Shown one piece after another: positions 6,301 through 57,100 of a stretch of DNA of 64,000 nt. Positions within the stretch are counted from its first letter, which is position 1. Each line of letters begins with the position of its first letter. The stretch comes from Liolophura sinensis. Taxonomy: Eukaryota > Mollusca > Polyplacophora > Chitonida > Chitonidae. The stretch covers positions 57,452,237 to 57,516,236 of the forward strand of contig NC_088302.1 in the NCBI RefSeq assembly GCF_032854445.1. The letters run 5' to 3'. The notes below the pieces were generated by a model. It did not search any database, had not been told where the DNA came from, and saw nothing but the letters and a program-made list of their open reading frames with translations. A program made the translations under genes and the position numbers.

Positions 6301-9300
6301 GCCAAAGCTTGCCTGGTTTAGTACACATTCAGAACATATACACAGTTGGCAGAGCAAATCATACAAAGAAATAAACAACTTTCTGGTGTTGTGATTCAGG
6401 TGTCCTTTAAGAAAGTGAATTAACTGAAACAAAGCCGAAAGTCCAGAGAATGAATTCCCATTCATCAATTCAATAATAAAAAACATTGTTTACAAATTCA
6501 TTACATGTACAAAGTGGGGAGTGCAACTGTAGAAGGACAAAATGTAGTAAAGTACCTTGGAAATTTGTAAATTTAAAACCAGGAAACTACAGTCAACATA
6601 GATGTTTACCACAAGTTTTAGCATGGGTAATATCCTTGTCATGAGGCTACAGCCAGGTATTAGGTGGATATGCATGCACTGAATCCCACACTACCTGGAT
6701 GACACAGCAGGAGACACTCGTGGCCACACTCTGGCTTCAGGCGACGCCCACAGGTCTGACCACAGGAGTGAGGCACCAGCCAGGGGTCAAATTTGGGGTC
6801 CCCCTTCCTCCCACAGAAGCACAGGTAACGGGTGGGGCACTCATACTGCTTGTACTCGTGGCGACATTTGGGACTGGAAAACAGTATGCGTGTGACTGAG
6901 ATTCTGTCTTAGCAGTTCACAAGTTTTCACAGGTTTTCTTAAAATAGTCAATCATTTCCATTTATCATTGTTAAGGTACCTCCTCCTTCTCCCTGTTGAC
7001 CTTGGTCTCCAGACAACCCCTTCCCCACCCCACACCCCCCCCCCACACCCCACACCCACCCACGGCAGTTCTGGTACACATCACTTACCAGTACCAGGGA
7101 GCCTCCTTCTCACTGATCTCCCCTCGGTTCTGATACACTTCCTTATACACCCCTTCCTTTACACATCACCTACCAGTACCAGGAAACCTCCTTCTCACTG
7201 ATGTCCCCTTGGTATTGATACACTTGCTGACACACCCCTTCCTTTACACATCACTTACCAGTACCAGGAAACCTCCTTCTCACTGATCTCCCCTTGGTTC
7301 TGATACATTTGCTGACACACCCCTTCCTTCACACATCACTTACCAGTACCAGGGAACCTCCTTCTCACTGATCTCCCCTTGGTTCTGATACACTTCCTTA
7401 TGCACCCCTTCCTTCACTCATCACTTACCAATACCAGGGAACCTCCTTCTCACTGATCTCCCCTTGGTATTGATACACTTGCTGACACACCCCTTCCTTT
7501 ACACATAACTTACCAGTACCAGGAAACCTCCTTCTCACTGATCTCCCCTTGGTTCTGATACACTTCCTTATGCACCCCTTCCTTTACACATCACTTACCA
7601 GTACCAGGGAACCTCCTTCTCACTGATCTCCCCTTGGTATTGATACACTTGCTGATACACCCCTTCCTTTACACATCACTTACCAGTACCAGGAAACCTC
7701 CTTCTCACTGATCTCCCCTCGGTTCTGATACACTTGCTGACACACCCCTTCCTTTACACATAACTTACCAGTACCAGGAAACCTCCTTCTCACTGATCTC
7801 CCCTTGGTATTGATACACTTGCTGACACACCCCTTCCTTTACACATCACTTACCAGTACCAGGAAACCTCCTTCTCACTGATCTCCCCTTGGTTCTGATA
7901 CATTTGCTGACACACCCCTTCCTTCACACATCACTTACCAGTACCAGGGAACCTCCTTCTCACTGATCTCCCCTTGGTTCTGATACACTTCCTTATGCAC
8001 CCCTTCCTTCACTCATCACTTACCAATACCAGGGAACCTCCTTCTCACTGATCTCCCCTTGGTATTGATACACTTGCTGACACACCCCTTCCTTTACACA
8101 TCATTTACCAGTACCAGGGAACCTCCTTCTCACTGATCTCCCCTTGGTTCTGATACACCTCCTAATACACCCCTTCTTTTACACGTCACTTACCAGTACC
8201 AGGGAACCTCCTTCTCACTGATCTCCCCTTGGTTATGATACACCTCCCGATACACCCCTTCTTTTACACGTCACTTACCAGTACCAGGGAACCTCCTTCT
8301 CACTGATCTCCCCTCGGTTCTGATACACTTGCTGACACACCCCTTCCTTTACACATAACTTACCAGTACCAGGAAACCGCCTTCTCACTGATCTCCCCTT
8401 GGTATTGATACACTTGCTGACACACCCCTTCCTTTACACATCACTTACCAGTACCAGGAAACCTCCTTCTCACTGATCTCCCCTTGGTTCTGATACATTT
8501 GCTAACACACCCCTTCCTTCACACATCACTTACCAGTACCAGGGAACCTCCTTCTCACTGATCTCCCCTTGGTTCTGATACACTTCCTTATGCACCCCTT
8601 CCTTCACTCATCACTTACCAGTACCAGGAAACCTCCTTCTCACTGATCTCCCCTTGGTATTGATACACTTGCTGACACACCCCTTCCTTTACACATAACT
8701 TACCAGTACCAGGGAACCTCCTTCTCACTGATCTCCCCTTGGTATTGATACACTTGCTGACACACCCCTTCCTTTACACATCACTTACCAGTACCAGGGA
8801 ACCTCCTTCTCACTGATCTCCCCTTGGTTCTGATACACTTGCTGACACACGCTTCCTTTACACATCACTTACCAGTACCAGGGAACCTCCTTCTCACTGA
8901 TCTCCCCTTGGTTCTGATACACTTGCTGACACACCCCTTCCTTCACCCATCTCTGTACACACTGAATGTGGAACATCCCATAGCATCCCTTACAGTTCCA
9001 AATCTGCCCAAGAAAACCACAATCAAAGTAAAAATAATCATAAATGACCATGAAATATGTTAAAGTACAATAATAAAAAAACTCGGAAAATTTTGCAATA
9101 TATTGAATGAAATTGTCAAGAAAAAATATATAACCTTACAACATATTATTAAATCAATATAAAACTTGAAAATATTCAACTTAATACATTTGCAAAGTTT
9201 CAGTTAAAAATTGTAAAGAGTTAAATAAAAAAAGTGCAGAAAACTCTAAGTGGGAGAGACATACATACAGACAGACAACAGGCAGTCTAGGTGAACAGGC

Positions 9301-54100: not shown

Positions 54101-57100
54101 TCTAGCAAATGTTGCACCACAAAGCCGACACTGAGTGGTCTAGCAAATGTTGCACCACAAAGCCGACACTTTGTGGTCTAGCAAATGTTGCACAACAAAG
54201 CCAACACTGAGTGGTCTAGCAAATGTTGCACCACAAAGCCGCCACTGAGTGGTCTAGCAAATGTAGCACCACAAAGCCGACACTGAGAAGTCTAGCAAAT
54301 GTTGCACCACAAAGCAGGACCCTAGGAGGCCACATTCAAATTGAGACGCAGGACGAAAGACATTGTCTGTAAACATCTACATTTACTTACGGTACTGTTG
54401 TATGTAAGATAAAATATATTTATAGTACAATACATTATTATTTTTGAGGTACTAAGTTTAGAGCTACTTACAGAATGAAGACGCTCCACAAGCTCATTGT
54501 CACCAAGGCAGCTGTTGGCATTAAACCAAGCATCAAAATCCTGTACAAATCAACATAAATAGAACATACTGATCACCATAAATGCAAAGTTCAACAAAAT
54601 ACAGGAATCCATGTTTTACTCTAATAACTAGAAATGTAGACACTTCAATGAGGAAATGTGAAGGCAAAGTTTCACACACTTACACCAGAGACAAATGTCG
54701 CACACAGTTAGTCTGTGGAGACCATTGTCACACACAGTTCCAGCCTGCGAAGAACACTGTCACACACAGAGTTACAGCCTGTGGAGACTACTGTCACACA
54801 TCAAGATGGCCTGGAGTAGGGCCTTTGTCACACAGAGGGTTACAGTCTGTGAACGACACTGTCATGCACAGAGACTGTCGGGGCCGAGGGCGTGTGACTG
54901 GTGGGGGCCGAGGGAGGGTGACTGTTGGGGGGTGGGGGCAGTTGGGGGCGTGGGTATTTGGTGTCTGTGGAAACCACTGTCACACAGTTACAACATGTGG
55001 AGACCACTTTCACACGCTTACATCAGAGTTACAGACTTTGGAGACCACTGTCACAGTTACATCCTGTGGAGACTACTGTCACACAGTTACAGCCTGTGGA
55101 GACTACTGTCACACAGCTACAGCCTGTGGAGACTACTGTCACACGGAGTTAGAGTCTATGGATGCCACTGTCACAGAATTACAGCTTCTGGAGGCCCCTT
55201 TCACAGACAGATCAATCAAACACAGGGTTACAGCCTGTGGAGACCACAGTGACACACAGAGTTAGAGCCTGTTGACGCCACCGTCACACATGCAGTTACA
55301 GCGTATGGGGTTCCACAGTGACACACAGAGTTACAGACTGTGAAGCCACTATCATACACCTACAATTACAGCCCCTGGAGTCATTGCCACACACACATAG
55401 TTACAGCCTCTAGAGGCCACCGCCACACACACACAGTTACAACCTGTGGAAACCACTGTCACACACAGAATTACAGCCTCTGGAGCCCACCGTCACACAC
55501 TTACATCAGAGTTGTTGAAGACGTCTGGCAGGAGGAAGTTTAGCAGAGCCCAGAGCTCATGGAGGTTATTCTGAAGAGGTGTACCAGTCAACAAGAGACG
55601 ATTTGCAGACTTGAACTCGCGCACAATTTCTGACAACTGGAAGCAGAAAACACAACATAATATCGCAATTCCACCTCTATGTAATTCTACAATATTTCTA
55701 TATCCATAAGAATGCAGAATATTTTTTATCCAACTGAAAATTACTTTGCACTATATTTGTTATAAAAAGGTAAATTTATTTTTCTGATTGGGGTAGTAGG
55801 CATCTCATAGAAATGTCTCTTAACAATCACAGACAATATAGAACTGCTGGGTGGATTAAGCACTTGTAGCCAAATATGCTTGTGAAGCAAAACTGCCTGC
55901 CCGTACCTTGGATTTCTCATTCTTTATCCTGTGAGCTTCATCAATGACAAGATACCGCCAATTGAACTTCTTGAAGACAGATTTTTCACGAATGACCATT
56001 TCATATGAGGTAATACAAACATCCCACTCTCCCGGCATCATTGTGTCCCTAATAAAGTTAGCCTGTCAAACACAAACACTGACAGCATTATTCTGTGTAA
56101 AAAAATCTGCTTCATTAGCGGGCATGTCACAAAAAGGCTAAAACTTAAGGAACATAACTTCATTGGTCATGGCAAGATGATGAACATAACAACACTTCAG
56201 GCCTCATGGCCCCTAAAGGCCTCACAGTGTAAAAACATGTTGCTTATGACAGACAGGGCAATTCTAGGACTAGTTAATTACTGAAAAACACTTAAATGTA
56301 ATTGATTATTTACTTGCTTGTTTGGTGTTTTATGTCATACTCAAGAATGTTTCATTTATACAACAGTGGCCAGCATTAGGTTGGGAGGAAACGTGGGAAG
56401 AGCCTGGGGGAGACCCACAACCATTCGCATGTTGCTGGCAGACTTTTCCACCTCAGACCGTGGTACATGTGATTATGATTAAGACGGCATGATTAAGAAA
56501 ATTATAGATTTCAGATGATGAGAGTACTTTTGTAGATATCAAAACTGTATGAATATATGATGGAACTTACTCTCTGAACTTGATCTCCAATGAGACAAAC
56601 TGCTCGAAGTGTTGGACACCATCTCTTGAATTCATTTACCCAGTTGGCGAGAGTGGATTTGGGGCCAATAACCAAGTGAGGGGAGGGAATGTTGCGATAA
56701 TGTTTCATGTAACCAAGCAAAGATATGGTCTGAAGTGTCTTTCCTAGACCCTGAAACATAAATAATAATAATATTTCTCATTGCCTTTCCAAGAAAGTGA
56801 CATTAAAGACTCAATAATGTCAAATTGATTGCCACAACTGACCATTTTACCGGGGCCTGAGTATATAACTGCCCAGCCATACTCACCATTTCATCAGCCA
56901 AGATTCCATTGATGCCATTCTCATAAAGGGAGATCATCCAGTTTAAACCTCGGACTTGATAGTCTCTCATTTCTCCACTTTTGATGTCTGAGGAGAGCAG
57001 AGGAAAATTGAAACTGTGATAATCTCTATGTATACGTACCACAAACATATATTCTTCTATTATCACTGATGTATGAAGCAGTTTAATGAAACAATGGGAG

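Follow-up and report, generated by a model that had tools for sequence, protein, structure and literature searches.

A stretch of 64,000 nucleotides of the chiton Liolophura sinensis (NC_088302.1:57452237-57516236, hereafter the window) raises the question of why minisatellites should lie across exon-intron junctions, carrying the end of an exon and its splice site with them from copy to copy. The assembly comprises 609,464,459 bases in 632 contigs, and the species name follows a published correction (PMC12441733). By Tandem Repeats Finder (TRF) and junction models, seven arrays of this kind were found in three genes of the window, namely an NFXL1-like gene, UBE3A and SMARCA5/ISWI. We put the probability at roughly three in four that they are mirages, as such structures have been called in amphioxus, i.e., minisatellites that arose in place from tandem duplications covering a junction, and whose decoy splice sites ride along neutrally. 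The arrays that span or abut a junction in the window are listed here; the AG and GT counts include the functional copy.

7075..8951, minus strand: 85-bp unit, 22 copies; spans donor 8873 of the NFXL1-like gene, with 79 exon bases; GT in 22/22 copies
29197..29895, plus strand: 34-bp unit; spans acceptor 29885 of UBE3A, with 11 exon bases; AG in 19/21 copies
32093..32551, plus strand: 52/105-bp unit; spans acceptor 32527 of UBE3A, with 25 exon bases; AG in 7/9 copies
39830..40138, minus strand: 121-bp unit, 2.6 copies; spans donor 40078 of SMARCA5, with 61 exon bases; GT in 3/3 copies
40612..42081, minus strand: 99-bp unit; spans acceptor 40646 of SMARCA5, with 35 exon bases; AG in 15/15 copies
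42309..42570, minus strand: 50-bp unit; spans donor 42552 of SMARCA5, with 19 exon bases; GT in 4/5 copies
51377..53383, minus strand: 106/211-bp unit; spans acceptor 51383 of SMARCA5, with 7 exon bases by TRF and about 30 by copy alignment; AG in 15/19 copies
55216..55500, minus strand: 34/70-bp unit; abuts donor 55505 of SMARCA5, beginning 4 bases into the intron
27041..27702, plus strand: 135-bp unit; abuts acceptor 27727 of UBE3A, stopping 24 bases short of it

Alignment of the copies confirmed that exon end and splice site indeed travel together in all seven spanning arrays. An earlier note on this DNA had claimed units across these seven junctions and exon-edge sequence within the arrays, both of which were borne out by the junction models, TRF and the copy alignment. 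It had also rightly described the array beside acceptor 27727 as abutting; the array that it took to span donor 55505 in part turned out only to abut it, the unit of a sister array matching up to 55505. Since the copies of the window arrays match each other at about 70-97% by TRF, with units of 34 to 121 bases, the arrays themselves are not a product of chance. Two further tracts of long minisatellites, at 1-2520 (68-bp unit, 37 copies) and 33337-35197 (25/50-bp units and a 41-bp unit), are tied to no modelled junction.

It is to be noted that edge calls depend on homology-based gene models, on the TRF array boundaries and on the guide proteins. Exon junctions in the window were modelled from alignments of its translated frames with guide sequences of human SMARCA5 and UBE3A, and the models yielded donors 42552, 40078 and 55505 and acceptors 51383, 40646, 27727, 29885 and 32527; two of the 26 window junctions were dropped by a splice-score or length filter, leaving 24 introns, to which the NFXL1-like gene does not contribute. 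UBE3A, on the plus strand, has an AZUL domain match in Pfam and HECT exon matches inside the window, and for one exon of SMARCA5/ISWI, on the minus strand, the best match was a SMARCA-family chain, 8v4y_W (1,052 residues), along with ISWI chains. The third gene, also on the minus strand and with an exon closed by donor 8873, is NFXL1-like to judge from its peptides, from which the name was read rather than from a homology model; a single zf-NF-X1 match in Pfam scored 23.2 bits against a cut-off of 22.7. Pfam gave no family for five of the seven window peptides submitted, and neither RNA families above the gathering score nor tRNAs were found in the window.

Arrays, or at least their copy numbers, might in principle have been created by the assembler, and the high-fidelity (HiFi) read coverage of just 14-fold, given in passages of the assembly paper (PMC11068029), speaks for such an artefact. 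Against it, the copies differ among themselves, and the anchored arrays reach at most 2.8 kb, whereas the HiFi reads average 8,347 bases according to the same passages; we give this explanation almost no credence. As an observation on the assembly itself, contig C99 (108,685 bases; L001-L003) contains seven COX1 matches about 15.5 kb apart, with one further copy on C632, which suggests that copies of the mitochondrial genome were joined head to tail there in the assembly. Read in genetic code 5, the mitochondrial contig shows by eye the gene order nad3-nad2-cox1-cox2-atp6, an order of molluscan type, and amphioxus as the host was rejected; a search for the GFP family also gave no match, a weak negative in that its control matched nowhere either.

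Recurrence of the arrays, which the earlier note had claimed within the window, was also seen elsewhere in the genome. The sample consisted of 24 gene regions (253,202 bases) picked by protein family and not by repeats: eight CCT subunits plus HSPD1, eight MCM-family regions, and seven proteasome-ATPase, VCP or related regions; for three of them (L019, L021 and L028), only distant guide proteins were available. Four of 229 sample junctions failed the splice-score or length filter and one of these, in CCT3, was restored, which gave 226 introns. Junction-spanning arrays were found in 8 of these 226 introns, in addition to an MCM2 array whose intron extends beyond the piece analysed and which was kept outside the placement test described below; altogether, nine such arrays occurred in 8 of the 24 regions. 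The donors spanned belong to CCT5, CCT3 (two), CCT6, MCM6, MCM2 and PSMC5, and the acceptors to L019 and VCP, so that window and sample together present 10 spanned donors and 6 spanned acceptors. Of the 452 splice junctions sampled, 8 (about 2%) carry a spanning array. The anchored units measure 34-225 bp and occur in up to 44 copies, the maximum being at the L019 acceptor. At the other extreme, the VCP acceptor (L026:3680-4131) has two copies of 225 bases, 96% identical, and this pair looks, from its sequence, like the first step of an array. These structures thus share the marks of mirages: a unit spanning the boundary, donors and acceptors both affected, and the splice signal in many but not all copies. 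Tandem arrays fill 34% of the window and 11.5% of the sampled regions by TRF, which makes the window a repeat-rich example. The densest among the regions analysed was L019, an MCM-like 10-kb region (C6:81169500-81179499), with about 68% tandem array.

The units offer a clue to their origin. Among 54 units with a score of at least 200 (window plus 18 loci), 41 match nothing outside their own array; of the remaining 13, ten match only within their own intron, to a sister array or to the second part of an array that had been cut, and three match pieces of other loci. In the one haplotype covered, all 11 genome-wide matches of the 8873 unit likewise fall within its own array. A dispersed repeat as the source was therefore rejected for most units, and since the units are mostly private to their locus, the arrays mostly arose in place. 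We envisage that, in a genome with many intronic minisatellites, a segment undergoing tandem duplication would by chance cover an exon-intron junction, and that slippage or unequal exchange would then lengthen the array. A duplication lying wholly within an exon would change the protein and be removed by selection, whereas one that crosses the junction would be tolerated because splicing keeps the copy attached to the exon body in use, the remainder becoming intron. The earlier note's proposal that the outermost copy keeps its function agrees with this scheme, in that the conserved protein is encoded by the copy contiguous with the exon body.

Are exon edges nevertheless special? The earlier note had inferred a distinct class of arrays with an edge-expanding process of its own; that is, exon edges or splice-site sequences would be hot spots at which tandem duplication starts. 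In the null model, the first unit of each array was dropped at random into those parts of the introns of its gene that no array occupies, edge-crossing being allowed. Over twelve settings and the 226 introns of the sample, spanning arrays were 1.3-3.1 times as frequent as expected, with P ranging from 0.25 to 0.0013. The excess is clearest for arrays with a score of at least 300, of which 8/23 span an edge (2.6-4.3 expected, P 0.0013-0.041), and it is this stratum that favors an edge-seeking process; for the 30 arrays scoring at least 150, 3.0-5.1 spanning arrays were expected, and when all arrays with a score of at least 50 are taken, 8/58 stand against 3.3-6.1 expected (P 0.011-0.25). In the two modelled genes of the window, 22 arrays touch an intron and 6 of them cross an edge by at least 5 bases, where 3.8-5.1 were expected (P 0.15-0.40; P 0.06-0.40 across all twelve settings). 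Array ends per kb numbered 0.18 on the exon side, 0.22 at the edge, 0.17 at 50-150 bases into the intron, 0.42 at 150-300 and 0.40 at 300-600, and are thus no denser at the edge than within introns. There was no peak of array occupancy at the exon edge in 165 sample introns, and no donor-side bias among 26 intronic arrays, of which 14 lay closer to the donor and 12 to the acceptor. Because the counts lie within 1.3-3.1 times random placement and array ends are no denser at edges, these results do not establish a separate edge-seeking process, which we consider unlikely. The edge-spanning arrays are, for the most part, what a high rate of duplication would be expected to produce.

The ladders of decoy splice sites foreseen in the earlier note are real. 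Retention of the splice dinucleotide was assessed in the 13 arrays that have three or more internal copies (SMARCA5 40078, MCM2 and VCP, which have fewer, were left out), and it was kept in 161 of 183 internal copies, compared with 155.3 expected from other adjacent column pairs. The mean rank was 0.57 (z 0.93), and 0.53 in a run of 11 arrays; neither purging of decoys nor selection keeping them was seen overall in either test. Were the decoys used, most would be harmful: among 142 close decoys (11 or more of 14 bases shared with the true site; frames assigned automatically, and by hand for NFXL1), 90 would shift the frame, so that no preference for frame-keeping unit lengths was seen, and 125, as summed by hand, would introduce a stop into the sequence retained. 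On these grounds, the decoys are presumably ignored by splicing, since most would bring a stop or a frame shift, and yet they persist as if neutral. Exon definition is the likely reason for their being ignored: splicing would use the site that pairs, over the length of a short exon, with its partner on the far side of that exon. The decoys look like harmless by-products, with no special system behind them.

One may ask instead whether the ladder itself serves alternative or stepwise splicing. Every internal copy does keep its dinucleotide in several arrays (21/21 at 8873, 43/43 at L019, 13/13 at 40646 and 12/12 at CCT3 7326), which favors functional decoys, but across the 13 arrays the dinucleotide is retained no more and no less than other columns are, GT is lost in 11 of the 25 internal CCT6 copies, and the stops just described would accompany most close decoys; such a role is very improbable. 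A separate observation concerns the units of the 29197-29895 array and of a CCT3 array (L006), in which a short coding piece is preceded by AG and followed by AG|GT, and whose internal copies could in principle, by their sequence, act as micro-exons.

Several results do weigh against a purely neutral origin at random positions. In the placement test, P fell below 0.01 in several settings, and pooling of window and sample (at a stage when the CCT3 junction was not yet included) gave P 0.0013-0.28; some edge bias, two- to three-fold, is therefore possible. Among the decoys, the CCT6 donor array keeps only 14/25 internal dinucleotides and the SMARCA5 51383 array 14/18, both of which rank low, and the only decoy of VCP reads AA in place of the AG of its functional site. 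Such losses could point to selection against decoys in some of the arrays.

The earlier note had further pointed out that AG/GT occurs on both sides of several of the junctions, and had linked this to intron gain, in which the arrays would mark introns newly formed by tandem duplication of AGGT-containing exon sequence. The motif is indeed present at the sites named, and a role in intron gain has been suggested in print for the amphioxus globins (passages of PMC3087553). The link itself found no support, because AG|GT appears near background at the anchored junctions and none of the arrays extends to both ends of its intron. With the anchored sites counted by hand, GT follows 3 of 6 anchored acceptors, versus 54/226 in the sample, and AG precedes 7 of 10 anchored donors, versus 130/226; an array reaching both intron ends was found in none of the 14 anchored cases for which both ends are known. 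Duplication of AGGT should leave related copies at both ends of the intron, and in the intron from 42552 to 40646, which does have an array at each end, the two units do not match each other. Intron gain as the source of these arrays is, on balance, highly doubtful, and the preferred reading remains that of mirages formed at existing junctions.

Should the sample be representative, such arrays would touch some 2% of the splice junctions and roughly one gene in three (8 of the 24 regions), and thousands of genes in one animal would carry rows of up to dozens of near-identical splice sites. We would tentatively go further and suggest, as a possibility on which we would not insist, that splice-junction minisatellites are a routine product of minisatellite-rich animal genomes rather than an amphioxus oddity, with only the outermost site in use. 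If true, they would constitute a natural experiment on how the spliceosome chooses among equal sites, e.g., whether nearness to the exon alone decides, and also a permanent reservoir of cryptic exons that could supply new exons or introns. The repeat table in passages of the assembly paper (PMC11068029) lists 0.08% as 'Other (simple repeat, microsatellite, RNA)' and 14.04% as unclassified; considering that TRF arrays make up 11.5% of the sampled regions, the tandem-array layer of this genome is largely unnamed.

In regard to known systems, molluscan junction-spanning minisatellites were found neither among the literature matches listed nor by a word search of chiton genome papers, a search that lay outside most subscription journals; as far as that search shows, the chiton adds a second animal phylum to the hosts of mirages. 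Human minisatellites of segmental duplications, in passages of PMC2812944, resemble the chiton arrays in that they expand, sometimes at an exon-intron boundary; about half of them lie in coding sequence and some were read as new introns, whereas in the chiton the extra copies are intronic, next to conserved coding sequence. The intron gain by tandem genomic duplication described for potato RdRp (Rogers; PMC4974935) is alike in that the duplication involves exon sequence bearing AG|GT, but differs in that the chiton array lies at one end of the intron, its AG|GT appears near background, and no newly gained intron is in evidence. The closest relatives are those of amphioxus. Passages of PMC3087553 describe the same boundary-spanning structures in the globins BflGb6 and BflGb9, refer to the 'mirages' named in Adh3, and propose the role in intron gain considered above; passages of PMC3902484 add PGBD5, cite TnC, and report no aberrant mRNAs for Adh and TnC, and between them the two sources report normal splicing and somatic instability. 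As they portray them, the amphioxus mirages are likewise minisatellite-like duplications over a 5' or 3' exon-intron boundary, with AG/GT in many but not all copies and the coding copy intact. The differences lie in the host, here a mollusc, and in size, since the amphioxus units are 10-72 bp in Adh3 and 150-160 bp in BflGb6, the latter in up to 6 copies, as compared with 34-225 bp and up to 44 copies in the chiton. The arrays described here are a known phenomenon in a new host phylum, and probably neutral.

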